From Gemmatimonas phototrophica (GTDB lineage: Bacteria; Gemmatimonadota; Gemmatimonadetes; Gemmatimonadales; Gemmatimonadaceae): 64,000 nucleotides of DNA. Made by a program: the position numbers and the translations under genes. Shown piece after piece: positions 4,815 to 63,873 of this stretch (position 1 is the stretch's first letter; the number at the start of each line of letters is the position of its first letter). The notes under the pieces were generated by a model. That model saw only the letters and a list, made by a program, of their open reading frames with translations. It made no database searches and had not been told where the DNA came from. The stretch lies in contig NZ_CP011454.1 of NCBI RefSeq assembly GCF_000695095.2, positions 4,092,001-4,156,000 of the forward strand. The letters are read 5' to 3'.

Positions 4815-4934
4815 GTAACAGCGTCATGGGTTATGGGTCAGCAGGTTACCGAGTAACCGCGGGAACAGCGGTGTCGCGCAGTTTCACCGCAGTAACGCGG
4901 TAACCCAATAACCCATAACCCATGACGCCGTTAC
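4815..4934. repeat. 120-bp imperfect palindrome, short type
   Basis: Two arms of about 48 bp (4815-4863 and 4886-4934) are inverted copies. Both begin GTAAC(A/G)GCGTCATGGG, followed by TTATGGG and a GGTTACCG block. The short loop carries GGAACAGCGG, which is the complement of the CCGCTGTTCC found in the centres of the large palindromes near 28.1, 36.5 and 63.7 kb. The left-arm sequence reappears at 63644-63690. It lies between divergent genes, so it could also act on transcription there. Confidence 0.85.
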
Positions 4935-13080: not shown

Positions 13081-16000
13081 TTACTGTCCGGTGATCTCCT
13101 CGGCGCTCGTCTGGCGCGCCTGCGGGGTGTCGGCCGGCTTCACTTCAATGACCGGGTGCCCGTGCTTCTTGAGAATCTCGTCGATGGGCGGAAGGAGCTC
13201 CTTGTACGCCTTTCGCAGCTCCACGAGATAGACCTCGAGCTCCTTGGTGAGCAGCTCGAACACCTGCTGCGACTGTTTGGTGGGGCGCGCTTCGGTGCTC
13301 CCCACCACACCGGCCAACGCCGCGATCTGGTTGTTCACCTTGATCGGGAAGTTGAGCGGGTCCTGGCCGGACTGATTCTTCACCTGATAGATCTGCGCTT
13401 CCATCTCGCTGATCTTGGCGTCGAGCGACTTGACCAGGCCGGCGTAGGCGGCCGAATCGCTGCCCACCTGGTTCATGCGCGTAACCGCCTGCTGGCGCAC
13501 GTTGCGCACGGTGCGCACGGCGTCGTTGGCGTCGGTGGTGCGATCGCGGATAGCCATGAGCAGCTTGTACTGCGCCACCAGATCCAGCGGCGTCGCGTCA
13601 CTGCGCGGATCCTTCTTCACCAGCAACTTGGCATCGCCAGCGGGAGCGCCGTCAACGAGCAAGCGCACGGTGTAGTTGCCCGGCAGTACCAATGGACCCG
13701 TGGTCACACCGGCCCACATGATCATGCCGTTGAACGTGGTGGCATCCGGCTCGCGCAGGTTCCACGAGAAGGTGTTCATCCCCACCGTGTTGGTGGGCGG
13801 ACGATCACCGGCCACCGCCCGACGGCCCCCGGGACCACCGGCAGCGACGACTTGATCGCTCGAGAACGACTTCACGGTGCGTCCGGTGCTGTCACGGAAC
13901 TCGATCGTGACCTTGCCGGCCTTCTCCTTGAGCCAGTAGTACACAATCGCGCCGTTGGGCGGATTCTGCCCCACCGGGCTGGTGGGCGCACCAATCTGGA
14001 AGCCACCGCCCCAATTAATGCGATACGACGGACGCGGCGTAAACAAATGCGCCTTCTTGGCCAGCACCTCGGCCGACAGCTGACGCAGCACACCGATGTC
14101 GTCGATCACGTAGAACGAACGACCATGCGTTCCGGCAATGAGATCGCCTTCCTTGATGGCGAGATCGTGCACCGGCACGATGGGGAGATTGCGCTTGAGC
14201 GAGAACCACGTCGCGCCGTCATCGAGTGAGGCGTACACACCGCGCTCGGTGCCGGCGAAGAGCAGCCCCGGACGCACGTCGTCTTCGCGAATCACGCGCG
14301 TAAACTCGGTGTTGGGGATGCCCGTGTTGATGCGCGTCCACGTCTTGCCAAAGTCAGACGTCTTGAAGAGGTACGGCTCCTGGTCGTCCATCTGGAACCG
14401 ATTGGCCGCCACATACGCCGTGCCGGCGTTGAAGTGCGAGGCCTCCACAATGGAGATGCGCGCCCACTCCCGTTCCTTGAGCAGCGGCGGCGTCACGTTC
14501 GTCCACGACAGGCCACCGTTGCGCGTCACGTGCACCAGGCCATCGTCGGTCCCGGCCCAGATCGTTCCCTTGGCAATGGGCGACTCGGCAATGGCGAACA
14601 CCGTGCCGTAATACTCCACGCTCGTCTGGTCCTTCGTGATCGGACCACCCGACGGACCCAGCGTGCGCGGATCGTTGCGCGAAAGGTCAGGCGAAATGGC
14701 GGTGTAGCTGTCGCCTTCATTGGTGGTCTTGAAGAGCACACTCGATCCCACATACAACGTCTTGGGATCGTGCGGGCTCACCACGATGGGGAAGGTCCAC
14801 TGCATGCGGTACTTCGCATCTTTCGCGTCGTGCCCCATGGGATTGAGCGGCCACGGATTCACGTCGCGCTCCATGCCGGTACGCATGTCCTTGCGCGTAA
14901 GGAAGCCGCCGTAGCTGCCGGCAAACACGATGTCCGGATTGTTCGGCAGCGCAGCAATGAAGCCCGACTCGCCGCCGCCGGCGTCCTTCCACATATCGAT
15001 CGTGATGCCACCACGCGCCCGCGACGGACCGCACAGCGTGCTGTTGTCCTGCTGCGCGCCGCAGATCTGATACGGGAAGTGATTGGTGGTGGTGACGTGA
15101 TAGAACTGGGCCGTGGCGAAGTCCTGCGCCGTCCACGTTTTGCCCGTGTCCACGCTCACCGAGGCACCACCGTCGTCGCCTTCAATCATGCGGCTTGGAT
15201 CATCGGGGGCAATCCACAGGTCGTGCGAGTCACCGTGCGGCGGATTGAGGTTGCTCCACGTCTTGCCGGCGTCCTTCGACACCTGGAACTGCACGTTTGA
15301 CGCGTACACCACGTCGGCGTTCTTGGGGTCGGCGTAAATCTTGGTGTAGTACCACGCGCGCTGACGCAGCTTGCGTTCGTCGTTCACACGCTCCCACGTG
15401 GCGCCGGCATCGTCGGAGCGATACACACCGCCCTGATCGGCTTCAATGAGCGCGTACACGCGGCGCGGATTGGCGCCGCTGACGGTGATGCCGATATTGC
15501 CCCAAAGGCCGGAGGGGAGGCCGGGATTCTTGGTGATTTCGGTCCAGGTGTCGCCACCATCAGTGGTCTTGAACATCCCCGAACCCTTGCCGCCGGAATA
15601 GAGCATCCATGGCTTGCGGTACGCCTGCCAGAAGCCGGCGTAGAGCACGTTGGGGTTGCTCGGGTCCATGACCAGATCGGCCGCGCCGGTGGAGTCATCG
15701 CGGAAGAGCACCTTCTGCCACGACTTGCCGCCGTCCTTGCTGCGGAACACGCCGCGCTCGTTGTTGGGGGCCCACACATGCCCCTGCACTGCGGCGTACA
15801 CCAGATCAGGATTGGTGGGGTGCACGCGCACCTTGGCAATCTGCCGCGAATCGTTCAACCCGATGTTCGCCCACGTCTTGCCACCATCGGTGGTCTTCCA
15901 CATGCCGTCGCCGTGCGACACGTTGCCGCGAATGGCGAACTCCCCACCGCCCACATACACCACGTCCGGATTGCTGGGGGCCACCGCCACGGCACCTACA

Positions 16001-16332
16001 GTGCCGCCAAAGTAGCGGTCGGTCATGGGCATCCAGCTTTCACCGCCATCGGTGGTCTTCATGACCCCGCTGCCGGTGGTGCCCATCCAGTACTCCTTGG
16101 GGCGGGCCGCCGATCCGGCCACGGCCACGGAGCGGCCACCGCGGTAGGGGCCAATTTCCCGCCAGCGCACGGCGGAGAGCGCGGCGGTATCGAACGAGGC
16201 GGCCAGCGGGGACGGCGCCGCGGCGCGAGCCACGGGGCGAGCCGCCGTGGGGCGGGCGGTCTGCGCTGACGCGGAGGCCAACGGGACCATCGCGCCGAGC
16301 AGCAGAGCGAAGCGCGGGGAGAAACGCATCAC
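13081..16332 (-). CDS. secreted VPS10/sortilin-type beta-propeller protein (Asp-box repeats)
   Basis: A 1083-residue exported protein with an N-terminal signal peptide ending near ASAQ. Residues about 50-780 contain at least ten Asp-box motifs (for example KTTDGGESW, KTTDGGKTW, RSKDGGKSW, RSDDAGATW, KTSDFGKTW, ASLDDGATW), the signature of BNR/VPS10 ten-bladed propellers. The C-terminal part has a FlgD-like strand unit (GNYTVRLLVDGAPAG) and a helical coiled-coil tail. Such proteins are often annotated 'glycosyl hydrolase', but the sialidase Arg triad and FRIP motif are not evident, so binding or peptidase-associated roles are as likely. The gene at 57557-60733 is a paralogue of the same architecture. 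It is divergent from the SPFH operon. Confidence 0.88.
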   Translation of the reverse strand: MMRFSPRFALLLGAMVPLASASAQTARPTAARPVARAAAPSPLAASFDTAALSAVRWREIGPYRGGRSVAVAGSAARPKEYWMGTTGSGVMKTTDGGESWMPMTDRYFGGTVGAVAVAPSNPDVVYVGGGEFAIRGNVSHGDGMWKTTDGGKTWANIGLNDSRQIAKVRVHPTNPDLVYAAVQGHVWAPNNERGVFRSKDGGKSWQKVLFRDDSTGAADLVMDPSNPNVLYAGFWQAYRKPWMLYSGGKGSGMFKTTDGGDTWTEITKNPGLPSGLWGNIGITVSGANPRRVYALIEADQGGVYRSDDAGATWERVNDERKLRQRAWYYTKIYADPKNADVVYASNVQFQVSKDAGKTWSNLNPPHGDSHDLWIAPDDPSRMIEGDDGGASVSVDTGKTWTAQDFATAQFYHVTTTNHFPYQICGAQQDNSTLCGPSRARGGITIDMWKDAGGGESGFIAALPNNPDIVFAGSYGGFLTRKDMRTGMERDVNPWPLNPMGHDAKDAKYRMQWTFPIVVSPHDPKTLYVGSSVLFKTTNEGDSYTAISPDLSRNDPRTLGPSGGPITKDQTSVEYYGTVFAIAESPIAKGTIWAGTDDGLVHVTRNGGLSWTNVTPPLLKEREWARISIVEASHFNAGTAYVAANRFQMDDQEPYLFKTSDFGKTWTRINTGIPNTEFTRVIREDDVRPGLLFAGTERGVYASLDDGATWFSLKRNLPIVPVHDLAIKEGDLIAGTHGRSFYVIDDIGVLRQLSAEVLAKKAHLFTPRPSYRINWGGGFQIGAPTSPVGQNPPNGAIVYYWLKEKAGKVTIEFRDSTGRTVKSFSSDQVVAAGGPGGRRAVAGDRPPTNTVGMNTFSWNLREPDATTFNGMIMWAGVTTGPLVLPGNYTVRLLVDGAPAGDAKLLVKKDPRSDATPLDLVAQYKLLMAIRDRTTDANDAVRTVRNVRQQAVTRMNQVGSDSAAYAGLVKSLDAKISEMEAQIYQVKNQSGQDPLNFPIKVNNQIAALAGVVGSTEARPTKQSQQVFELLTKELEVYLVELRKAYKELLPPIDEILKKHGHPVIEVKPADTPQARQTSAEEITGQ

Positions 16333-24726: not shown

Positions 24727-24746
24727 GGGGTTTGTTCGGAGTGAAT

Positions 24747-24786
24747 GGGGGCAGCGGACGTCGTCCGCTGCCCCCGTTCCTTTTTG
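24747..24786 (+). terminator. intrinsic terminator after the first metalloprotease
   Basis: Two 14-base arms (GGGGGCAGCGGACG and its complement, 24747-24775) flank a single central base. A T-rich tract with five consecutive T follows. It lies 20 bp past the stop and before the large palindrome. Confidence 0.88.
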
Positions 24787-24790
24787 CACG

Positions 24791-25152
24791 GATCTGAGAC
24801 CGAGACCGCCGACTCCAGACTGCTAGACGTGGACGATGCGAGTTGTGATGATCGAGGTGCGATGGATATCGAATGTGAGAGGGTCGAGACAACGACGACG
24901 ATGAGAAGTCCGAGCACTGGCGTCCGCACGGAACTGCCGCGACTCCCGACGCGCACCAGCGCGAAGCGCGCCGTGCGCCCCCCGCCCCCAACCGGCCGGT
25001 GTGGGGCACATCCGCGCGGAGGAACTGCTCGGACTTCTCATCGTCGTGGTTATCTCGAGACTCTCACATTCGATATCCATCACCATTCGATCGTCACAAC
25101 TCTCACCGTCTGCCTCTGTCAGTCTGAGGTCTCCGATCTCGCCCCCGCGATC
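24791..25152. repeat. large palindromic intergenic element, copy A
   Basis: The inner palindrome runs 24861-25081, starting and ending with GATGGATATCG and its complement. Arms of about 73 bp match closely, including the GAATGTGAGAG and GATGAGAAGTCCGAGCA blocks. Looser outer arms (GATCTGAGAC-type) extend to about 24791 and 25152. The centre carries GTGGGGCAC at 25001-25009 on the plus strand. It fills most of the 523-bp gap between the two metalloprotease genes; the last 97 bp before the second gene show no clear feature. Confidence 0.87.
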
Positions 25153-25249
25153 TTAGCCCTCCCTGTAGTTCCCCTACGGAATGCACCCGCCTAGACTCCG
25201 GTGTCCCGCCAAGTGAGCGGGCGTTCCTCCCTCCTTTTCGTCAGGTCCA

Positions 25250-27862
25250 ATGCGCTTTCGCTCCACGCCGCTGGTGCTGGCCGGTTTGGCTTTTGCCGCC
25301 TGCAAGCCCGCCAAGCAGTTCGTGTCGGCGCCCGCTCCCACGCCTGCGCCTTCCGGCGCAAACACCCGGCCCGCCCCGCGCGCGCCCGTGCCTGGACAGC
25401 CCACCCCCACGCCGGGCCAACCCGGCAATGGCCAGCCGCCCGCCGGCCTGCCCAACATTCCGGGCCTCGCCGGCGCCCTTGGCGCCCAGGGCGAGCCCAA
25501 TCCGCGCCCGTACGCGCAGGTCATCACGCCGCGCGCCAAGAGCAAGAAGGGCGTGTTTGACGTGCACCAGGTGGGTTCGCGCCTCTATTTCGAAATCCCC
25601 GCTTCGCAGGTGGGCAAGGATTTCGTGATCACCAGCGTGCTCGCGGGCACCCCCGCCGGCATTGGCCTGAACGGCACGTTGGGCACCGATCGGCTCATCC
25701 GGTTTGAACGTCGCGAGAATCGCATTCTCGTGCGCGATGTGCGCTACAACAATGTGGCCACGGACAGCCTGCAGCAGACCCGGCGCGCCATGTCGCTGAT
25801 CGAGTTCTACCCGATCATTGCCTCGCTCAACGTCGAAACGTACGGCAAAGACAGCGCCGCCGTCGTCGAGGTGACGCGCATGTTCACCGGCGGCGTGCAG
25901 GAGTTCATTGCCAACGGCCGTCGTGCCACCGTGGACGCGTCGCGCTCGTACATCGACAAGTTTGCCGCGTTCTCGCGCAACGTGAACGTGACCGCCATTC
26001 AGACGTTCACGCCCATTGGTGGCGCAGGTGGCATTCCGGGACTTCCCATTCCGGGCTTTGGCGGCGCCGCACAGGCCACCACCGAAGCGTACACCTTCTC
26101 CATTGTCCGGTTGCCGGACGAGCCCATGATGCCGCGGCTCATGGACGCGCGCGTGGGCTACTTCGGTGAAAACAAAACCGATTTCGGCTCCAACGAGCAG
26201 CGCGTGCTGCCGCGCCGCTACATCGCGCGCTGGCGCCTTGAGTGCTCCGACCAGAAGGTCGGCAATCTCTGCGCCCCCAAGAAGCCCATCACGTACTACG
26301 TGGACCCGGCCACGCCCAAGTGGCTCGTGCCCTTCGTGAAGGCGGGCATTGAGGAGTGGCAGCCGGCGTTTGAGCAGGCCGGCTTTGCCAAGGGCATCGT
26401 ATCGGCCGACGCGCCCAATGATCCCGATTTCTCGGGTGAAGATGCCAGTGTGGCCATGGTGCGCTGGTTGCCGTCGCCGGTGGCCAACGCCGTGGGCCCC
26501 AGCACCACCGATCCGCGCACCGGCGAAATCATCGACGCCGACGTGCAGATGTACCACAACATCATGGACCTCCAGCGCAACTGGTACTTCACGCAGGTGG
26601 GTCATCTGGACCCGCGCGCGCAGAAGTTCCCGTTCCCCGATTCGCTCATGGGGCGCCTGGTGCAGTTCGTCGTGGCGCACGAAGTGGGGCACACCCTCGG
26701 CTTCCCCCACAACTTCAAGGGCAGCTCGATGTATCCGGTCGACTCCATCCGCAGCAAAACGTGGGTGGCGAAGATGGGGCACTCGCCCAGCATCATGGAC
26801 TACGCGCGCTTCAACTACATCGCGCAGCCGGAAGACGGCATCGCCCTCGGCGATCTCGTGCCGAAGGTGGGCCCGTACGACCGCTACGCCGTGATGTGGG
26901 GGTACAAGCCCATCCCGGGTGCCAAGACGTCGGAAGACGAAAAGGCCACGCTCGACAGCTGGGCGCGTATGCAGGACAGTGTGCCCTGGTACCGCTTTGC
27001 CAGCGACGCCGGTGCCGGCGGCGCCGATCCGGGTGAGCAGTCGGAAGCCATTGGCGATGCCGATGCCGTGCGCGCCACCACGCTGGGCTTCAAGAACATC
27101 GCCCGCGTCATGAAGCTCGTGGAAGCCGCGGCGACGAACAACAAGCTCGCCGACTACTCGTTGCTGCGTCAGACCTATGGCGAAGTGATTGGCCAGTGGG
27201 CCACCGAAGCGGCGCACGTCACGAAGATCGTAGGCGGTTCGGACAAGCAGGAAAAGGCCGTGAGCCAGGGCGGTCCCGTCTTTACGCCGGTGCCGCGCGC
27301 CCGTCAGAAGGCGGCCGTGAAGTTCCTGAACGACGAGGTGTTCACCACGCCGTCGTACCTCATCAACGTGCCCACGCTGCGCAAGTTCGAAGCCGACGGC
27401 AACATCAACCGCATCACCGGCGCACAGGCGCGTTCGCTCTCCAGCCTCGTGAACAACACGAAGCTGCAGCGCATGGTGGAAGCGGAAGCCACGGCGTCCA
27501 ACAAGGCCGACGTGTACTCGCTGGGCGAAATGCTCACCGATCTGCGTCGCGGCCTGTGGAAGGAGATCTACGGCGGTCAGCCGGTGAACGCCTATCGTCG
27601 TCGCCTGCAGACCACGTACCTCGAGGCCATGGCGAGCAAGATCAAGCCTGCGCCGCCCAGTGCGCAGGACGCACTGCTGGCCCAGTTCCTGGGGGGTGGC
27701 ATCGTGAACACCCGTGATTTCCGTCCCCTTCTCAAGGACGAAATGCGTGTTCTGGACCGGGAGATCGCCGGCGCCGTGGCCCGCACGAGCGACCGCACCA
27801 CGCGGGCGCACCTGCAGGACGCGCGGGACCAGATCAAGGCCATGCTCGACACCGACAAATAA
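25250..27862 (+). CDS. zinc-dependent metalloprotease lipoprotein, paralogue of the preceding gene
   Basis: An 870-residue lipoprotein with lipobox AFAAC near residue 18, followed by a Pro-rich linker. Architecture and most motifs equal those of the 22138 gene: RYNN/DYRD-type strands, VEVTRMFTGGV, WRLECSD.KVGNLC, YFTQVGHLD.RAQK, and the zinc site HEVGHTLGFPH with His477 as first ligand. The internal Gly-rich linker near residue 255 is shorter, and the second linker differs (FLGGGIVNTRDFRP). The pair looks like a tandem duplication that diverged. It has its own strong terminator, so the two genes are probably separate transcription units. Confidence 0.9.
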   Translation: MRFRSTPLVLAGLAFAACKPAKQFVSAPAPTPAPSGANTRPAPRAPVPGQPTPTPGQPGNGQPPAGLPNIPGLAGALGAQGEPNPRPYAQVITPRAKSKKGVFDVHQVGSRLYFEIPASQVGKDFVITSVLAGTPAGIGLNGTLGTDRLIRFERRENRILVRDVRYNNVATDSLQQTRRAMSLIEFYPIIASLNVETYGKDSAAVVEVTRMFTGGVQEFIANGRRATVDASRSYIDKFAAFSRNVNVTAIQTFTPIGGAGGIPGLPIPGFGGAAQATTEAYTFSIVRLPDEPMMPRLMDARVGYFGENKTDFGSNEQRVLPRRYIARWRLECSDQKVGNLCAPKKPITYYVDPATPKWLVPFVKAGIEEWQPAFEQAGFAKGIVSADAPNDPDFSGEDASVAMVRWLPSPVANAVGPSTTDPRTGEIIDADVQMYHNIMDLQRNWYFTQVGHLDPRAQKFPFPDSLMGRLVQFVVAHEVGHTLGFPHNFKGSSMYPVDSIRSKTWVAKMGHSPSIMDYARFNYIAQPEDGIALGDLVPKVGPYDRYAVMWGYKPIPGAKTSEDEKATLDSWARMQDSVPWYRFASDAGAGGADPGEQSEAIGDADAVRATTLGFKNIARVMKLVEAAATNNKLADYSLLRQTYGEVIGQWATEAAHVTKIVGGSDKQEKAVSQGGPVFTPVPRARQKAAVKFLNDEVFTTPSYLINVPTLRKFEADGNINRITGAQARSLSSLVNNTKLQRMVEAEATASNKADVYSLGEMLTDLRRGLWKEIYGGQPVNAYRRRLQTTYLEAMASKIKPAPPSAQDALLAQFLGGGIVNTRDFRPLLKDEMRVLDREIAGAVARTSDRTTRAHLQDARDQIKAMLDTDK

Positions 27863-27879
27863 GCGATCGGAGATCACAG

Positions 27880-27920
27880 GAAGCGCGGCCGGACGGTGTC
27901 CGGCCGCGCTTCTTGTTTTC
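27880..27920 (+). terminator. intrinsic terminator after the second metalloprotease
   Basis: A perfect 15-bp GC-rich stem (arm GAAGCGCGGCCGGAC) with a 3-base loop GGT is followed by CTTGTTTTC. It begins 18 bases after the stop and directly precedes palindromic element B. Confidence 0.9.
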
Positions 27921-28259
27921 AGAGGTGTGACCTCAGAATCCGACGATGCGATGTCCGAGGTCGGACGATCGAGTGTTGCGATGGATATCGATGTCGGATA
28001 TGCGATAACTACGACGGTGAGAGGTCCGAGTACTTCGTCCGCCTGGAGAGTGCCACTTACCGTTCTCGTTCGACTGCGGGGACGGCCGCTGTTCCAGCGG
28101 CGTCCGTGGGGGGTACGGTCGTGCGGACGTAAGTACTCGCACTGCTCATTGTCGTAGTTGTCTCGACCCTCTCACATACGATATCCATCGCACCTCGGGC
28201 GTCGCAACGCTCGCACCTCAAGATCCCGCCTCGGCCGCCGGCGATCTCAGATCCCGCCC
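27921..28259. repeat. large palindromic intergenic element, copy B
   Basis: The inner palindrome spans 27980-28189 with GATGGATATCG at the left and its complement at the right. Both arms contain AACTACGAC and GAGTACTT, variants not seen in the other copies. The centre holds a small stem CCGCTG-TTC-CAGCGG (28086-28100) followed by a GTGGGGGGTAC form of the core on the plus strand. Outer arms with GATCTCAGATC-type sequence reach about 28259. It fills the gap between metalloprotease 2 and the rhodanese gene. Confidence 0.87.
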
Positions 28260-28276
28260 CTTGCCGGCGATACGAA

Positions 28277-28316
28277 CTCAGCTTATACTTATGTAAGCAT
28301 ATCTTAAACTGAGGAG
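28277..28316 (+). promoter_or_regulatory. AT-rich promoter with inverted repeats and strong RBS before the rhodanese gene
   Basis: CTCAG (28277-28281) and CTGAG (28309-28313) enclose an unusually AT-rich stretch for this genome, including CTTATGTAAG and CATATCTTAA. GAGGAG four bases before the ATG is a good ribosome site. It resembles the region before the pirin gene. Confidence 0.5.
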
Positions 28317-28319
28317 TTC

Positions 28320-28601
28320 ATGCCTACGTTTCGCAGCAAGCCGGTCGATGCCGTTATTGACGTCCGCTCCAAAGTCGAGTTTTGGCTCGGCCATCTCCCG
28401 GGCGCGCAGTGCATTCCCGTGGACACGCTCCCCGCCGGGCTTGAGGGCGTGGCCGGCGTCTCGAAGCAATCCCGGATCCTCGTCTACTGCGCCAGCGGGG
28501 CCCGTTCGGCCATGGCGAAGCAGATGCTGACGGCCGCGGGCTACACCAACGTGACCGACGGGGGAGGCATAGCCAGCGCCCGCCCGGACTTCGCCGAGTA
28601 G
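28320..28601 (+). CDS. rhodanese-like domain protein
   Basis: A 93-residue single-domain rhodanese. VIDVRSKVEFWLGHLPGAQCIPV is the conserved opening, and YCASGARSA holds the catalytic Cys57 in the CxxGxR loop that carries persulfide sulfur. A C-terminal helix and the GGG turn complete the short GlpE/PspE-like fold. It has no signal peptide, so cytoplasmic sulfurtransferase activity is likely. It is an orphan gene: palindrome B lies before it and palindrome C begins at its stop codon. A strong Shine-Dalgarno and an AT-rich promoter suggest independent, possibly regulated expression. Confidence 0.87.
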   Translation: MPTFRSKPVDAVIDVRSKVEFWLGHLPGAQCIPVDTLPAGLEGVAGVSKQSRILVYCASGARSAMAKQMLTAAGYTNVTDGGGIASARPDFAE

Positions 28602-28898
28602 GTGAGAGCTCGGATCTGAGTTCGCCGATCTGAGATCTGGAGGTGAGAGATTGCGAGTCGCGAAGGTGCGATGGATATCGATGTCGGAGGACCGACAACC
28701 ACGACGATGAGAGGTCCGAGTAGTGGCCTCCGCACGAAGCGCCCCCGCTGGTGTGGGGCACTTCCGTGCGGACGCCAGCACTCGGACCTCTCATCGTCGT
28801 AGTCATCTCGACCCTCTCACCCTCGATATCCATCACATCTCGGGCCTCACAACGCTCGCACCTCCCAATCCCGCCTCGGCAATCTCAGATCTCAGAAC
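28602..28898. repeat. large palindromic intergenic element, copy C
   Basis: The inner palindrome runs 28670-28834. Arms share GATGGATATCGA, CGACGATGAGAGGTCCGAGT and TCCGCACG blocks. Outer arms are especially clear here: GATCTGAGATCTGGAGGTGAGAG on the left is mirrored by CACCTCCCAAT and AATCTCAGATCTCAG on the right. The core GTGGGGCAC is at 28753-28761, plus strand. It lacks the small CCGCTG stem of B, D and E. It fills the whole space between the rhodanese stop and the convergent DUF2490 gene stop. Confidence 0.87.
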
Positions 28899-36363: not shown

Positions 36364-36700
36364 CGGGTAGATCGCCGAAGCGGGACGGCGATCTGGAGGG
36401 GAGAGCGTTGGGCGTCGCGAGGTGCGATGGATATCGAGGGTGAGAGGCCCGATGACAGCGAGGTGTGAGGTCCGAGTGCTGGCGTCTGCGCTCCCGTGCC
36501 GCACACGGGCTTGGGGAAACAGCGGGGACGACCGCTGTTCCAGCGGCGTCTGTGGGAGGCACATACGGGCGGAGGCAACTACTCGGACCTCTCACCATCG
36601 TGGTTATCTCGACCCTCTCACCTTCGATATCCATCGCACGGTCTCGCCTCCCAACTCGCAACTCCACGTCCCAGATCTCAGATCTCCCGTCTCACCCGCG
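36364..36700. repeat. large palindromic intergenic element, copy D
   Basis: The inner palindrome spans 36426-36635, bounded by GATGGATATCG and its complement. Arms share GGTGAGAG and TGAGGTCCGAGT blocks. A central stem CCGCTG-TTC-CAGCGG (36532-36546) precedes a GTGGGAGGCAC form of the core (36552-36562). The right outer arm (CCAGATCTCAGATCTCCC) contains the stop codon of the convergent 36678-37241 gene, so the element overlaps coding sequence there. Its left end starts just after the M42 peptidase stop. Confidence 0.87.
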
Positions 36701-56306: not shown

Positions 56307-57560
56307 TTACCGTAACGACCCCAGCAGTCGCGCCACGAAGCCGTTCAGGCTGGCCGTGGTATCCATCCAGCGAATGACCGCCACGACGTCATTGACGGGA
56401 TCCACGTAGATGAAATTGTTGCCGGCGCCGACGTGGACAAACGCCTCCGGCGGCGCGGCAGCCAGATACGACCGGTCGGGGTTCACGAACCAGTTCATGT
56501 AGCCGTAGGTCTTTTGCGCCGGAGTGGGGGTGAGCGCCTGCGTCACCCACGCATCGCTCAGCAGCCGCTTGTCACCCCACAGGCCCCGCCGCTGCGTGAG
56601 CAGGCCAAAGCGAGCCATGTCCCACGCGTTGAGCACCATGCCGCCACCCCAGTGGCCACCGCCGCTCACGCTCTGTACCTCACGCCCGTCCAGCACGATC
56701 CACGAATTGTCGTAGCCGTACCAGCGCCACGTGTTGGACGCCCCAATGGGGTCCATGATGCGCTCCTTGAGCACCTCCGGCAGGGGCCGCCGCCACACCT
56801 GCAGCGCCGCCAGTGCGAGCACATTCACGCGAGTGTCGTTGTACTCGTAGGCACTGCCTGGTTCCACGCGCGGGCGTGTGGTCCAGGTGGCCGCGTTCTG
56901 CGCCGGTCGATCGGCCCACTCCGGCTTGCCCCACAGCGTGCCTTCCCAATCACTCACCTGGCGCAGCAAATGATCCCACGTGAGCCGCTTGTTGTGCGGC
57001 GTGTCGAAGGGCATGAGCAGCTTGTCGGTGCCAGGCCAATCGCGGCTGTAGGCGGTGCCGTTCGGACGTGCCCGCACAATGGGTGGTACGTATTTGGCCA
57101 CCGTGTCGTGCACGCTGCGAATGCGCCCTTCGTCCACGGCCAGCCCCACCACCGTGCTCACGAAGCTCTTGGTCACGCTGTTCGTGATCTCCTCTGCTTC
57201 AGGATCACCCCAGGTCGCCACCACATAGCCGCGACGCACCACAATGCCGGTCGCCACTCCACGCGGCGGCAGCGGCCCAATGGCATCTCCCAACGGTTCG
57301 CGTCCGAAGCTCTGCAGATGATTGAGCTCCAGATCACGCGGCGTCTTGCTTTCCTTGCTGATGGCGAAGGCCACCGCATCCGCGAGCTTGGCCGAGTCCA
57401 TGCCGACTGCAGACGGCGCCCGACGCTCCCAGCTTCCGGCCGGCGGCACATAGGGCGCCACCGAAGCACTCTTCTTCTGCGCCGACGCCGGTGAGGCAAG
57501 CCCCACCACCAGCGTCGTCGCACCCACAACCCGATACCCAATACTCCGAACTGTGGTCAT
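56307..57560 (-). CDS. secreted serine hydrolase, class C beta-lactamase/penicillin-binding fold
   Basis: A 417-residue exported protein (signal peptide to about ASAQK). SVTKSF gives the nucleophile Ser128 and general base Lys131, and YNDTRVN gives the Tyr-X-Asn motif. The third motif is likely HVGAGNN, in place of KTG. Such proteins are esterases or D-amino-acid peptidases, and antibiotic resistance should not be inferred. Its ATG overlaps the stop of the upstream propeller gene (ATGA), so translation is coupled and the two proteins probably work together. Confidence 0.85.
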   Translation of the reverse strand: MTTVRSIGYRVVGATTLVVGLASPASAQKKSASVAPYVPPAGSWERRAPSAVGMDSAKLADAVAFAISKESKTPRDLELNHLQSFGREPLGDAIGPLPPRGVATGIVVRRGYVVATWGDPEAEEITNSVTKSFVSTVVGLAVDEGRIRSVHDTVAKYVPPIVRARPNGTAYSRDWPGTDKLLMPFDTPHNKRLTWDHLLRQVSDWEGTLWGKPEWADRPAQNAATWTTRPRVEPGSAYEYNDTRVNVLALAALQVWRRPLPEVLKERIMDPIGASNTWRWYGYDNSWIVLDGREVQSVSGGGHWGGGMVLNAWDMARFGLLTQRRGLWGDKRLLSDAWVTQALTPTPAQKTYGYMNWFVNPDRSYLAAAPPEAFVHVGAGNNFIYVDPVNDVVAVIRWMDTTASLNGFVARLLGSLR

Positions 57561-60500
57561 GCGATCGGCCCCTTCCCCTTCGCCTTGCCAATCACGCCCG
57601 GCACGTTGTTCGCCTTGAGCAGGGCGTTGAACGCCGGCACATCCACGTTTTCGATCTGCTCCACTTCAGCGCGAATGGCACTCCACACCTTCTCCAACTC
57701 GGCCAGACGATCCTTCACCGGCTGCGTGAGCGCCGTGTTCCCTTCCACCTGCCCCATGAGGAAGCCGTACTGCCCGTTGATCCCGTTGGCGTAGTTGATG
57801 ATGTCCTGCCCGTTGGCCGCCTTGGTGGTCAACCGCGGGTCCATCTTCTCCAGCTTGCCATTCAACGAACGGCCAGCCTTGGCAATGGTATCAGCGGCGC
57901 TGGTTTCCTTCGCACGCGCCACGTAGCCCTGCACCTGCGTCTTCACATCACGCAGCCGCAGCACGGACTCGTGAATCTCGGTAATGCGCGTCGCCAGCAG
58001 GTTGGCCACCGAATCGCGCTCCGCAATCACGGCCACCGGCGCATCAATGCGCGGATCCATCTTCACCACGAGTGGCTGCGTTTGCACCGTGCTTCCCACG
58101 GTGAGCCGAACGGTGTAGTTGCCCGGCGTAACTCGCGCGCCGCCGTCGCTCGGTGCGCCGAAGAGCAGCACATTGCCCACGCGCGTGGGCATGGGGCGGC
58201 GCAGGTTCCACGTGAGCGTATTCAGTCCCGCCTTGGCGGTGAGTCGGCTCAGGGAATCCTTGGTCGCGTAGGAGCGCACCACCATGTTCTTGCTGTCGAG
58301 AAACTCGACCGACACCGCCGTGGCGCTGTCCGGCGCCGCGGCCAGTCGGAAATACACGGTCGCACCGTTGGGCGGATTCTTGCCGGCGTTTTGCGGCGTA
58401 CCAAAGCCACCGCCACCCGCAAAGAGAATGGCCTCGCGTGGTGCGTACAGATGCGCAGTGGCCTTCTCCACACTCTCGGCCCGCTGACGCAGCACCGACA
58501 GGTCGTCGAGAATCCAGAACGCGCGCCCTTCGGTGGACGCAATGAGATCGCCGTGCTTCACCTGCAAGTCCGTAACCGGTACCACCGGGAAGTTGCCGCG
58601 GAATGGCAGCCACTGCGCGCCCGCATCGTACGACACGTACACACCCGTTTCGGTCCCCGCGTACAACAGCCCTTTCTTCACCGGGTCTTCGCGCACGACA
58701 CGCACCGGCTCTCCATCACGCAGGCCATTCACGATGCGCGTGAAGGTGGCCCCGTAATCCTTCGATACGAAGATGTGCGGCGTGGGATCACCCACGCGGT
58801 CCTTGCGGAACGACACGTACAGCGTGGCCGGATCGTGCGGCGAGATGGCAATTTCATTCACGAGGCCATCGCCCCACGCAGCCGGCGTGACGTTCGTCCA
58901 CGTCTTGCCACCGTCGCGCGTGCGCTGAATGAGACCGTCGTCGGTGCCCACGTACAGTGTGGACGCATCGTGCGGTGACTCTTCGATCACCACAATGGTG
59001 GCATACACCTCGCCACCAGCGCCTTCGTTGGTGATGGGGCCACCACCCCACCCCTGCCGCGTCTTGTCGTTGCGCGTCAAGTCGCCGGAGATCGGCGTCC
59101 ACGCCTGCCCACGATTGGTGGTGCGGAAGAGCACGTTGCCGCCGTGGTACACCACCTTGTCGTCGTGCTGCGACACCTCAATGGGCGCCGTCCAGTTGAA
59201 GCGGTACTTCGTCTTGTCGGTAGGCTCGGTGAGGTTCATCTCGGGCCACGGCATGATGGCGCGGGTGAGCCCCGTGTTGGCATCCTGCTCTTCGATGATG
59301 CCCTGATAGCAGCCACCGTACACGTAGCGCGGGTTCTTCGCACTCACACCCATGTTGGCGCTTTCGCATCCCGGGCCTTCCTTCCAGTCGCGCAACCCGA
59401 TCGCGCCGCCGTCGCTGCGGGACGCAATGATGACCGAGCTGTTGTCCTGCTGGCCGCCGTACAGCTTGTACGGGAAGTCGTCGTCCACCGCCACATGGTA
59501 GAACTGCGACGTAGGCTGGTTGTCCTGCGTGCTCCAGCTCTTGCCACCGTTCAATGAAATGCTGGCGCCACCGTCGTTGGCATTGATGAGATACCGCGAA
59601 TCACGCGGGTTGACCCAAACGCCATGATTGTCGCCGTGCATGGCCGGCAGCACGGCAAACGTGCGGCCACCATCAATGCTCTTGAGCAACGGCGCGTTGC
59701 TGATGTACACCACGTCGGCGTTGGTGGGGTCGGCCGTGATGTGCATGTAGTACCAGGAGCGCGTCTGAATCAGCCGGTCGCCGCTCAGCAGGCGCCACGA
59801 CTTGCCGGCGTCATCGCTGCGGAACAACCCACCGGCTTCCGCTTCCACAATGGCGTACACACGGTCGGGATTGGCCGGCGACACGGACACGCCAATCTTG
59901 CCCATCAGCTTGGGCAGTCCTTCGGTGAGCCGTTTCCAGGTATCGCCGCCATCGGTGCTCTTCCACATGCCGCTGCCGGCGCCGCCGGAACGCACCATCC
60001 ACGGCGTACGCTGGTGATCCCAGAACGCCGCATACAGGATGCGCGGATTGGTGGGGTCCATGGACAGGTCACTGGCGCCGCTGGTGGCGTTCTCTCCCTT
60101 CAGCAGCAGTGTCCACGTCTTACCGCCGTCGGTGCTGCGGTAGATGCCACGATCGGTGGTCCCTTTCCAGCGATCGCCCTGCACGGCGGCGTACACAACA
60201 TCCGGATTGGTGGGGTGCACCCGCACCGCCGAGATCTGCCGTGACGCCTCCAGCCCCGTCCGGGTCCAGGTGCGCCCCTGGTCGGTGCTCTTGTACATGC
60301 CGTCGCCGTAGGTGCTCGACTGGCCGCGAATGGCGTGCTCGCCGCTCCCCACGTACAGCACGTTCTCATCGCTCGGCGCCACGGCAATGGCCCCAATGGA
60401 GCTCGACGTGAAGAAGCCGTCGGAGATGTTGCGCCAGTTCATGCCGGCGTCGTCGGTACGCCAAAGCCCCCCGCCGGTGTAGCCGGCGAAGTACGTCATG

Positions 60501-60733
60501 GGGTTGCTGGGCAGGCCGACCACGGCCACCGACCGGCCCCCACGCCACGGGCCAACGTTGCGCCACGAAAGCGCCGCAAAGGTCGTGGAATCGAACGCGG
60601 ACAGGGCGGGGCGAGCGGCGGCCTTGCCTGCCGTCTGGGCGTTGAGCGAGGCCGGGAGGGCCAAGGGAAGCGCCAAGGCCAGCGCCAAAGACGCCCGGCG
60701 GGCGGCGAGGTGGGGACGACGATGACGGGGCAT
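57557..60733 (-). CDS. secreted VPS10/sortilin-type beta-propeller protein, paralogue
   Basis: A 1058-residue exported protein. A signal peptide (SLALALALPLALPASLNAQ) precedes an array of Asp-box repeats: RTDDAGMNW, KSTDQGRTW, RSTDGGKTW, KSTDGGDTW, RSDDAGKSW, RTRDGGKTW and others. A Fn3/FlgD-like unit (GNYTVRLTVGSTVQTQPL) and a helical tail follow. The layout repeats that of the 13081-16332 protein. The ATG at MPRHRRPHL is chosen because it directly precedes the signal peptide; the frame is open far upstream, but without coding character. It is followed by a coupled serine hydrolase. Confidence 0.88.
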   Translation of the reverse strand: MPRHRRPHLAARRASLALALALPLALPASLNAQTAGKAAARPALSAFDSTTFAALSWRNVGPWRGGRSVAVVGLPSNPMTYFAGYTGGGLWRTDDAGMNWRNISDGFFTSSSIGAIAVAPSDENVLYVGSGEHAIRGQSSTYGDGMYKSTDQGRTWTRTGLEASRQISAVRVHPTNPDVVYAAVQGDRWKGTTDRGIYRSTDGGKTWTLLLKGENATSGASDLSMDPTNPRILYAAFWDHQRTPWMVRSGGAGSGMWKSTDGGDTWKRLTEGLPKLMGKIGVSVSPANPDRVYAIVEAEAGGLFRSDDAGKSWRLLSGDRLIQTRSWYYMHITADPTNADVVYISNAPLLKSIDGGRTFAVLPAMHGDNHGVWVNPRDSRYLINANDGGASISLNGGKSWSTQDNQPTSQFYHVAVDDDFPYKLYGGQQDNSSVIIASRSDGGAIGLRDWKEGPGCESANMGVSAKNPRYVYGGCYQGIIEEQDANTGLTRAIMPWPEMNLTEPTDKTKYRFNWTAPIEVSQHDDKVVYHGGNVLFRTTNRGQAWTPISGDLTRNDKTRQGWGGGPITNEGAGGEVYATIVVIEESPHDASTLYVGTDDGLIQRTRDGGKTWTNVTPAAWGDGLVNEIAISPHDPATLYVSFRKDRVGDPTPHIFVSKDYGATFTRIVNGLRDGEPVRVVREDPVKKGLLYAGTETGVYVSYDAGAQWLPFRGNFPVVPVTDLQVKHGDLIASTEGRAFWILDDLSVLRQRAESVEKATAHLYAPREAILFAGGGGFGTPQNAGKNPPNGATVYFRLAAAPDSATAVSVEFLDSKNMVVRSYATKDSLSRLTAKAGLNTLTWNLRRPMPTRVGNVLLFGAPSDGGARVTPGNYTVRLTVGSTVQTQPLVVKMDPRIDAPVAVIAERDSVANLLATRITEIHESVLRLRDVKTQVQGYVARAKETSAADTIAKAGRSLNGKLEKMDPRLTTKAANGQDIINYANGINGQYGFLMGQVEGNTALTQPVKDRLAELEKVWSAIRAEVEQIENVDVPAFNALLKANNVPGVIGKAKGKGPIA

Positions 60734-60802
60734 CGGGTCGAGCTCCTGAAGGATCGGAAGGGGCAGGTCGAAACTCCAAGCTATCACCTTCACCTCCAAG
60801 TC

Positions 60803-62113
60803 GTGTCCCTGCTCCAACCCTCGCCAGCATCCACCACGTTCCGCTACCGACGGACCGCCGATTTCACGGCGCTCCGCCTTGGCCGGGCCATTCTGGGATA
60901 CCTCGCGGTCATCGTCGCCATCATCACGCTGGCCCCGTTCCGCTTTGCCAGTGCCCCGGTGCACGGGCTCACCAGCCTCTGGAACTGGCAGGATCTCATC
61001 CTGAACGTGGTGATGTTCATGCCGTTCGGGTTCGTCTACCAGCTTACACGCCCGCGGGGAACGCCATTTCGCTGGCCCAAGGTGCTGCTCTTGGGCGCGG
61101 TGCTGAGCGGGGCCATAGAAATCGCCCAGCTCTTTGCCCCCACGCGGTATACCTCCCTGTTGGATCTGGCCACGAACACGACCGGGACCTTGCTGGGCGC
61201 CTGGGCATTCAACGCCCTGGCTGCGCGGGTCCGCGGAGATGCCGCCGTCCGTCTGCTCGCCCTCGAGTTGCCGCTTATGGGACTCGTGTACCTGCTGGTG
61301 CCGCTCTGCTGGCTAATTGGCCTGGGCAGCGAGGCCGAGGTGCGTCGTCTGTTGGTGCTGGGCCCGAGTGTCATGGCCGGCGCCATTCTGGGCACGGTCC
61401 ACGCGTCCTTTGTCCGGCACGAACCGGGGGGCGGGCCACGACGCTTCACCCCACCGCCCCGCGGGATACCGTGGTGGCTGGTCGCCTCGACGCTGGGCTG
61501 GTCGCTGGTGGCCCTGGTGCCGGGGGCGCGGGGGGACCTGTCGGTCATTGTGTCGGGGACCCTGCTCACCTTGGCCAGCGGCTTTCTGCGCGACATTGGA
61601 ACGCGTCGAATCGTGCGCGCCGGGGGCTCCCGCCGCCTGGAGCTACCCACCCTCCGGATGGTGCTCCCCATTTTTGCCGCGTACCTCGCGCTATCGGCAC
61701 TCTGGCCCCTCACCGACGCCACACCCGTCTGGCACGGTGCGCTGGCGCTGACCCTCCCCGGCGTTCCCCTCTCCCAACCGCTGGTCTATCGTGCACTCGA
61801 ACAGGTCGCCGCTTTTACGCTGGTGGGTTACATGGGCGCCGAATACCATGGCCGCGAAGACACGAACGGCGGGACCGGGGTGCTCCGTCTGGCCTTCTGG
61901 AGCGGTGTCGCCGCCGTGCTGCTCCAGGCGGCCCGCGGCTTCCATGAATCGCACGGGGCCAGCCTGTCCTTACTGGTGCTCACGCAGATCGCGGGCGTGT
62001 TTGGCCAGTGGGTATACATCCTGCAGCGGGCGCACGTGCAGGCGCTGGTGAAACGCCGCGCGCTGCTGGAGCGCCTTCGTCAAGCGACCAGCATGCAGCG
62101 CGCGGCGGCCTAG
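60803..62113 (+). CDS. VanZ-like membrane protein
   Basis: About 436 residues with many transmembrane helices. The N-terminal half fits the VanZ domain: TLAPFRF, then WNWQDLILNVVMFMPFGFVYQL, then LSGAIEIAQLFAPTRYTSLLDLATNTTGTLLGA. The C-terminal half adds about five more hydrophobic helices of no known family. VanZ proteins are linked to teicoplanin resistance in some clusters, but most, like this one, stand alone with unknown function. The start is uncertain: I use the GTG at 60803; an ATG at 60722 would overlap the divergent propeller gene start. Confidence 0.75.
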   Translation: MSLLQPSPASTTFRYRRTADFTALRLGRAILGYLAVIVAIITLAPFRFASAPVHGLTSLWNWQDLILNVVMFMPFGFVYQLTRPRGTPFRWPKVLLLGAVLSGAIEIAQLFAPTRYTSLLDLATNTTGTLLGAWAFNALAARVRGDAAVRLLALELPLMGLVYLLVPLCWLIGLGSEAEVRRLLVLGPSVMAGAILGTVHASFVRHEPGGGPRRFTPPPRGIPWWLVASTLGWSLVALVPGARGDLSVIVSGTLLTLASGFLRDIGTRRIVRAGGSRRLELPTLRMVLPIFAAYLALSALWPLTDATPVWHGALALTLPGVPLSQPLVYRALEQVAAFTLVGYMGAEYHGREDTNGGTGVLRLAFWSGVAAVLLQAARGFHESHGASLSLLVLTQIAGVFGQWVYILQRAHVQALVKRRALLERLRQATSMQRAAA

Positions 62114-63635: not shown

Positions 63636-63873
63636 GCGATGGAAACAGCGTCATGGGTTATGGGTTATCGGGTGACCGAGTAACTGCGGTAAGAACTGGG
63701 ACGACCGCTGTTCCAGCGGTGTCCGTGAGGGGCACGTCCCGTGCGGACGCCAGCACTCGCACCTCGCATCGTCGTGGTTGTCTCGACACTCTCACCCTCG
63801 ATATCCATCGCACCTCGCGACTCGCAACGCTCTCACCTCCACGTCTCACCTCGGCCGTCTCACGTCTGTTGTC
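63636..63873. repeat. large palindromic element, copy E (chimeric, with a short-type left half)
   Basis: Only the right half of the large palindrome is intact. A CCGCTG-TTC-CAGCGG stem (63705-63719) and the core GTGAGGGGCAC (63725-63735) are followed by the right arm ending in the complement of GATGGATATCG at 63799-63809, then outer-arm sequence. On the left, GCGATGGA (63636-63643) breaks off and continues as AACAGCGTCATGGGTTATGG, the arm of the short palindrome near 4.87 kb. The right end abuts the stop codon of the gene at 63874. Confidence 0.82.

Follow-up and report, generated by a model that had tools for sequence, protein, structure and literature searches.

The large palindromes in the window, a 64,000-nucleotide stretch of the Gemmatimonas phototrophica chromosome, belong to one of several dispersed palindromic-repeat populations of this genome, and four of these populations are associated with genes of the 23S-rRNA IVP family (PF05635/TIGR02436, four-helix bundle). 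The complete genome encodes exactly four such proteins, and each of the four genes adjoins a different palindrome family, here termed A, B, G and H. This arrangement suggests that IVP helps the repeats to spread. The partner gene of the window palindromes lies outside the window and was therefore invisible to the first-pass annotation, which was made from the window alone.

Palindromes in the window and their genome-wide distribution

The first-pass annotation had reported five copies of a single palindrome family, and all five are present at the coordinates it gave. Four of them are dimers of inverted family-A arms (A-A'), with self-palindrome scores of 204, 167, 90 and 46 bits, while the fifth proved to be a hybrid of families A and B. 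The first dimer (24791..25152) comprises arms at 24804-24927 and 25016-25137 with a spacer of ~89 nt; an inverted-repeat search delimits it as 24801-25141, with arms of 116 nt and 82% complementarity, i.e. the palindrome is genuine. Immediately upstream, between the stop codon and the palindrome, lies an intrinsic-terminator-like hairpin with a T run belonging to the upstream gene (24743..24779, plus strand). The second dimer (27921..28259; arms 27925-28042 and 28123-28244, spacer ~81 nt) is also preceded by an intrinsic-terminator-like hairpin (27876..27916, plus strand), and its left arm has decayed, leaving an arm-arm identity of 62%. The third (28602..28898; arms 28614-28733 and 28768-28890) has a spacer of only ~35 nt and fills the gap between convergent genes, and the fourth (36364..36700; arms 36369-36489 and 36569-36686, spacer ~80 nt) has convergent genes on either side. 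The hybrid element (63636..63873) consists of a B left arm (63644-63689), a spacer with GGGACGACCGCTGTTCCAGCGG and an A right arm (63743-63864), and is 91% identical over 202 bp to a copy elsewhere on the chromosome (928263-928464). A family-B palindrome with arms GTAACAGCGTCATGGGTTATGGGT... is found at 4815..4934; its cognate is the IVP gene at chromosome position 3778395. The single-strand folds of two copies are 14-16 s.d. below those of dinucleotide shuffles, and none of the Rfam covariance models matched the window at the gathering threshold.

Throughout the genome we found 50 family-A elements: 30 are dimers, whose inverted arms measure ~120 bp, and the remaining 20 are solo or hybrid arms. 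A 21-mer from the A arm has 76 genomic matches at <=2 mismatches, as opposed to 0 for the reversed control pattern. All copies are located between protein genes and none inside an rRNA gene. With a total length of 240-360 bp and arms of ~120 bp, these dispersed intergenic elements are, as had been proposed, far above REP and BIME units in size, and no transposase is encoded near them. The dimers follow stop codons at a median distance of 16 bp; 13/30 occupy convergent gaps and 0/30 divergent ones. Target-site duplications could be sought only at boundaries blurred by heptad repeats, and the one candidate empty site comes from a comparison of species too diverged to align.

Association of palindromes with IVP genes

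The A-flanked IVP gene is located between inverted A arms at 1231113 (minus strand) and 1231869 (plus strand). The gene at 3778395 has B arms on both sides (57 bp, 96% identical), the gene at 3663938 is flanked by two H palindromes, and the gene at 1684458 is followed by a G palindrome. Within 805 kb of G. phototrophica DNA, the IVP arms have matches at dispersed places numbering 46-49 for A, 13-15 for B, 8 for G and 3 for H; genome-wide, family B reaches 53 matches. The encoded proteins score above the curated PF05635/TIGR02436 cut-off and exhibit the four-helix-bundle fold, their fold neighbors being 2gsc and 2rld, followed by Avd (4dwl) and the DGR ribonucleoprotein (8ub7/8ube).

Inverted arms enclose 42/55 IVP loci (at the other 13/55 they were undetected), compared to about 1-3% of ordinary genes (2/150, 1/150 and 2/150 in three counts). 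The association holds also when viewed from the side of the repeats: among 20 palindromes detected de novo in G. phototrophica (400 kb random sample plus the window), 13 match an IVP flank, while in 20 draws of random flanks the number of matches had a median of 0 and a maximum of 7. The corresponding figure for the related genome G029 is 5/13. Palindromes without an IVP partner in the same genome amount to 7/20 in G. phototrophica, 8/13 in G029 and 4/5 in G021. In one G. phototrophica region, the genes between the unpartnered families are host genes and a Uma2-like gene. The gene-less A palindromes cannot be derived from today's IVP locus by deletion alone, because their ~80-nt loop is missing there.

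Inverted heptad-periodic arms enclose IVP genes throughout the genus, and IVP genes from Chloroflexota and from cyanobacterial plasmids are likewise situated between such arms. In the cyanobacterial plasmids these are pure inverted heptamer arrays on both sides, e.g. (GGGAACA)n and (TGTTCCC)n; within the 100 of 279 kb read of a Nostoc plasmid, the array occurs only at the IVP gene.

Family A is species-specific and is replaced by family C in the sister clade

Conservation of family A across Gemmatimonadota, on which the first-pass annotation had made a widespread element depend, is not seen: the family is species-specific. None of 60 relatives carries it, save for short fragments in two, and a search of GTDB and IMG/VR with the A-arm 21-mer yielded no other record. 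What stands of the proposed mobile element is thus a dispersed, probably non-autonomous family, but not one with a sequence conserved across the phylum. A phage or viral origin was discarded, as the pattern is missing from IMG/VR and IVP is missing from phages.

The sister clade possesses an unrelated family, C, which in at least 10 cases occupies the same intergenic gap as A. The two are not diverged forms of one family, since the similarity of their consensus sequences does not exceed that of shuffles. Orthologous copies of C are 85% identical and paralogous ones 72%, the orthologue being the best match in 54/65 cases, and short-term concerted evolution was rejected on this ground. Homogenization of arms within an element by gene conversion was likewise rejected for family A, where the partner arm is the best match in 0/60 cases. 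No movement was observed: three species that are ~94% identical carry family C at the same sites, with no empty site among them, so activity is old or rare. The palindromes have been inherited in place over at least ~5% divergence.

The IVP loci are mostly syntenic across the genus, and the genes are under purifying selection (pN/pS 0.04-0.40 in 9/10 pairs), while the sequences of the arms and palindromes vary among clades. At one orthologous IVP locus the arms are of family A in G. phototrophica and of family C in G006/G018, i.e. in each case of the locally abundant family.

Base-pair evolution and alternative explanations

The palindromes might be maintained because they serve the host at gene ends, through 3'-end protection, bidirectional termination or DNA architecture, with IVP acting as a hairpin-binding regulator and not as an agent of mobility; in our opinion this is unlikely. 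The location of the dimers just past stop codons, their preference for convergent gaps and the stability of the sites in three species agree with such a function, as does the observation that in family C the paired columns diverge at half the rate of the unpaired ones (0.088 vs 0.176; flanks 0.204) and contain 17 compensatory double changes (9 distinct pairs), compared to 0-2 in shifted controls. However, pair-breaking single changes number ~450, and changes to G-U are not above those to A-C (103 vs 127, counted on a DNA-like structure without G-U taken from a third species). We therefore see no sign of RNA selection, and the structured RNA that had been suggested finds no support in base-pair evolution. 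A count based on alifold had given 220 vs 100, seemingly indicating tolerance of G-U, but the alifold-derived structure is biased for this purpose, and the excess disappeared once it was replaced by the structure without G-U. A host function is further at odds with the arms of one A element being hardly closer to each other than to those of different elements (similarity 0.76 vs 0.73), with the location of some copies behind a normal terminator, and with the wholesale sequence replacement between clades.

The palindromes could also be primary, and the IVP genes cargo that was inserted into or captured by palindromes of other origin. The existence of palindrome families without an IVP gene and the constant position of IVP loci across the genus are consistent with capture, but we regard it as distinctly unlikely, given that each of the four IVP genes in the complete genome adjoins a different family and that the orthologous locus carries each clade's own abundant family; chance capture predicts no joint change of the arms of a fixed gene and the dispersed copies.

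A protein-free origin, in which slippage generates heptad tracts, template switching at the fork generates palindromes, and the sites are hot spots, appears highly improbable. It would account for the period-7 structure, which is seen in family C (z = 59), the outer arms of A (z = 17) and the 42 IVP arms (z = 11.8), and of which the outer GATCTGAGATCT stretch pointed out by the first-pass annotation is a part. It would also account for the inverted interior of an orthologous G009 copy, for the double changes from A-C to G-T in family C, as expected of arm inversion, and for the half-and-half A/B hybrids. Nevertheless, copies far apart have a 120-bp arm and a ~80-bp spacer in common, which requires copying from a template and not local slippage, and the association with IVP is left unexplained.

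Least probable of all is that the elements are ordinary MITEs or REP-type repeats which owe their movement to a conventional DDE or Y1 transposase, now lost or located elsewhere: they are short, intergenic, multicopy and non-coding, with terminal inverted repeats, but the complete genome lacks any PF01797 (Y1/RAYT) protein, which rejects RAYT as the mobilizer (8/29 other members of the genus have one each), no gene other than IVP was seen between matching arms, and the A-arm 21-mer does not recur in any other record of GTDB or IMG/VR that was searched.

A model for the spread of palindromes

From the association of the four genes with four families we infer that IVP mobilizes the palindromes. 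The explanation that we consider probable as a whole is that an IVP oligomer would recognize the RNA or single-stranded DNA hairpin formed by its own palindrome family and would help to copy it into sites behind genes. Copying may use a reverse transcriptase in trans, in an Avd-like manner, or the single strands of the replication fork. New copies would often enter gaps already used by older palindromes, such that each lineage would overwrite the sites with its own family. Most present copies would be slowly decaying, and tolerated because of their location at gene ends.

Comparison with known systems

REP hairpins carry a GTAG/CGTC tag at the foot, and the size of their units is not comparable with that of the elements described here: REP/REPIN units have 20-40 bp, in contrast to 240-360 bp with heptad-periodic arms of ~120 bp. 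As in REP/BIME and REPIN-RAYT systems, dispersed intergenic palindromic populations turn over faster than the gene. RAYT is a vertically inherited single-copy gene linked to repeats of its own (PMC8049555); in Gemmatimonas a cognate gene with these properties exists, but it encodes IVP, a four-helix-bundle protein without a known catalytic domain, and RAYT is absent. Since the IVP genes are mostly syntenic and under purifying selection while the arms vary, the system is REPIN-RAYT-like, but with an Avd-like protein.

The intervening sequences (IVS) of 23S rRNA from Coxiella, Leptospira and others are excised by RNase III; their mobility has been proposed but, to our knowledge, never demonstrated. 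Their IVP/S23p ORF occupies the loop of a long stem; they also have inverted repeats at their termini, and heptamers lie by the ORF (GACAGAT in Coxiella; PMC4990558). The IVP loci described here resemble them in lying between inverted arms, but the elements are found between protein genes and the great majority of copies are gene-less.

The STRR heptamers of cyanobacteria and Xanthomonas (GGGAATC, GGGGA(C/T)T) are intergenic arrays, many of them inverted pairs (70-75 per Xanthomonas genome; PMC4692102). Their tandem 7-bp unit has its counterpart in the heptamer arrays on each side of the plasmid IVP genes of cyanobacteria and, in degenerate form, in the Gemmatimonas arms, where, unlike in STRRs, the heptads are fused into one long stem.

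Avd and IVP have the same fold (4dwl, 8ub7/8ube). In diversity-generating retroelements (DGRs) Avd is needed for retrohoming; unlike in DGRs, neither a reverse transcriptase motif nor a pair of template and variable repeats was seen in the neighborhoods of IVP genes. A relation between Avd and IVP has been pointed out before (PMC10053308). MITEs and foldback elements share with the palindromes a short non-coding sequence, many copies and long inverted arms, but here there is no parent transposase, and the gene between matching arms is IVP.

Implications

The structures of IVP/S23 four-helix-bundle proteins have been solved, but we know of no function assigned to them, nor of any explanation offered over decades for the rRNA intervening sequences. 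Our results provide a candidate role for IVP/S23, as the partner of a dispersed palindrome population, which would place the rRNA intervening sequences in a genome-wide context and makes IVP a candidate cause of heptameric intergenic repeats. More tentatively, and with less than even confidence, we propose that IVP/S23 proteins across bacteria may drive an unrecognized class of mobile palindromes by Avd-like copying to gene ends, possibly with an RNA intermediate and a reverse transcriptase in trans, and that the 23S IVS and the heptamers of cyanobacteria and xanthomonads could be products of the same system. The IVP-hairpin pairs coexisting in one genome are specificity controls for one another. 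Our findings suggest that the REPIN-RAYT mode, in which a vertically inherited gene accompanies a population of hairpins that evolves fast, has had more than one origin, involving unrelated proteins.

Palindromes of the window and of the whole chromosome

The five large intergenic palindromes described in the first-pass annotation (24791-25152, 27921-28259, 28602-28898, 36364-36700 and 63636-63873) are present at these positions of the window, which corresponds to 4092001-4156000 of the chromosome, a single 4,716,552-bp contig. Four of them are indeed of one type, dimers of family A (A-A') with two inverted arms of ~120 bp; the fifth (63636), assigned to the same type, is a hybrid with a left arm of family B and a right arm of family A. 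A sixth palindrome, B-B', is located at 4815-4934. The proposed long hairpins are borne out by two window copies that we folded, 14-16 s.d. below shuffles. The window also contains two very long reverse-strand ORFs (13081-16332 and 57557-60964) with many internal repeats in common, which probably encode sialidase/beta-propeller-like repeat proteins.

Searches with blast, patterns and profiles, and inspection of the loci themselves, revealed 50 family-A elements genome-wide, 30 of them dimers and the other 20 solo or hybrid arms, i.e. a dispersed family that extends beyond the window's five copies. The copies are ~75% alike, arm orientation is identical in all dimers, the commonest spacer length is 80-81 nt, and arms paired in one element resemble each other hardly more than arms from different elements do. 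A 1.32-Mb stretch (1849474-3168035), which may be the chromosome's terminus half, is free of family A (mean largest gap under random placement 0.42 Mb; simulation P < 1/5000), although it holds other palindrome families. At 896-941 kb (L043-L045) eight B/A hybrid elements lie within 45 kb, several of them at sites that bear palindromes of another family, C, in sister species. Conservation of family A in relatives was not found: blastn detected it as short fragments only, in two of 60 genomes, and an arm 21-mer has no match in the GTDB or IMG/VR collections.

Association with IVP genes

When 400-kb samples of four genomes were scanned de novo, each yielded several families of palindromes, many of them showing a period of 7 bp; two inverted pairs from a related genus enclose an ORF whose start resembles a four-helix-bundle protein. 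G. phototrophica has exactly four genes for the PF05635 "23S rRNA intervening-sequence protein" (IVP), and all of them adjoin palindromes, each of a different family. The gene at ~1231390, which lies in the gap that follows an rpoC-like C-terminus, is surrounded by A arms, the one at ~3778395 by B arms and the one at ~3663938 by H palindromes, while a G palindrome follows the gene at 1684458. IVP genes are associated with palindromes, with family specificity inside one genome: 13 of the 20 de novo palindromes of G. phototrophica (random sample plus window) match one of these four flanks, versus a median of 0 for random flanks. Elsewhere 5/13 (G029, a distant species) and 1/5 (G021) match IVP flanks, with no partner gene seen for the remaining palindromes. 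In L222 (8574-9560), a Uma2-like gene has unpartnered GGAGAGCACGGAGG-type palindromes on either side, and another small ORF is surrounded by CACAGAGG palindromes; genes other than IVP may likewise have families of their own.

Inverted arms, scored at 36 bits or more within 600 bp, enclose 42 of 55 IVP loci (largely Gemmatimonas, but with three Chloroflexota records included), compared with 1-2 of 150 ordinary genes per genome. As a set, these arms exhibit excess identity solely at lags 7 and 14 (z 11.8 and 8.1). IVP genes on cyanobacterial plasmids (Calothrix, Nostoc, Pseudanabaena) are flanked by inverted heptamer arrays, with one exception among six. In the Pseudanabaena plasmid (L328) the gene, with long heptamer arrays, is located between cas6 and cas4.

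Synteny of the IVP loci is largely kept across the genus, and pN/pS of 0.04-0.40 in nine of ten pairs indicates purifying selection; the tenth pair includes a copy with a stop codon. One orthologous IVP gene has A arms in G. phototrophica and C arms in two other genomes (G006 and G018). Turnover of the arms in step with the local palindrome family, around a gene that stays in place, is the published pattern of RAYT transposases and their REPIN repeats (PMC8049555), and the IVP loci resemble it, except that G. phototrophica has no RAYT.

Turnover, position and structure

Family C, discovered via one of the family-A blastn fragments, shows no detectable similarity to A and has 26-30 copies per species in the stretches read from three sister species. 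The fetched elements with comparable flanks are all at the same place in the three species, and orthologues are 85% alike versus 72% for paralogues. At least 10 of 33 C sites share their intergenic gap with a G. phototrophica family-A element, where a rough count predicts fewer than ~1 by chance; the remaining compared gaps include two with other palindromes, one with another repeat, one nearly empty (36 bp) and one without a palindrome. At one coincident site G029 bears yet another palindrome and G001 and G023 none. Between G009 (L149) and G006 (L147), an orthologous palindrome differs by inversion of its loop, a sign of palindrome-mediated inversion. In L042 (8548-9463), tandem ~250-bp units with inverted GAGGACTG motifs occupy a position that carries a palindrome in sister species.

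A structured RNA, one of the options raised in the first-pass annotation, fares poorly. With one species' fold applied to the other two, family-C divergence is 0.088 in stems, 0.176 in unpaired columns and 0.204 in flanks, and there are 17 compensatory double changes (9 distinct pairs) versus 0-2 in shifted controls; however, single breaking changes are far more frequent than compensatory doubles, and G-U is not favoured over A-C. Weak constraint or palindrome-correcting replication errors account better for this substitution pattern. Nor can the palindromes generally be the terminator, because two window copies sit behind a normal intrinsic terminator. According to simple gene calls, family-A dimers lie a median of 16 bp downstream of a stop codon and, in co-directional gaps, 93 bp (median) upstream of the next start; 13 of 30 are between convergent genes and none is in a divergent gap (in a random set of gaps of 100 bp or more: 19 convergent, 68 co-directional, 25 divergent).

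IVP protein and a possible mechanism

The protein scores as TIGR02436 and PF05635. Its structural model (pLDDT 93) matches best Xcc0516 (2gsc) and BT_0352 (2rld), followed by Avd (4dwl) and Avd in the DGR ribonucleoprotein (8ub7, 8ube), the latter group with weak E-values and probability near 1. The relation between PF05635 and Avd, which is essential for retrohoming, has been pointed out (PMC10053308). It is only this relation that hints at copying through RNA by a reverse transcriptase acting in trans; next to the IVP genes, no motif of such an enzyme was seen.

The Coxiella IVS, for which mobility has been proposed, combines an S23p ORF, inverted repeats and heptamers (PMC4990558), and heptameric inverted repeats were reported from Xanthomonas and Nostoc with no mention of IVP (PMC4692102). 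Our literature search, with preprints and most subscription journals outside it, found no link of IVP or the four-helix-bundle protein to inverted repeats or mobile elements. We observed no movement of palindromes; what characterizes them is heptad arms, gene-end position, stable sites and turnover between clades. We propose that an IVP would bind the hairpin of its own palindrome family and help to copy it into gene ends, where new copies may often land at places in which older palindromes stood.
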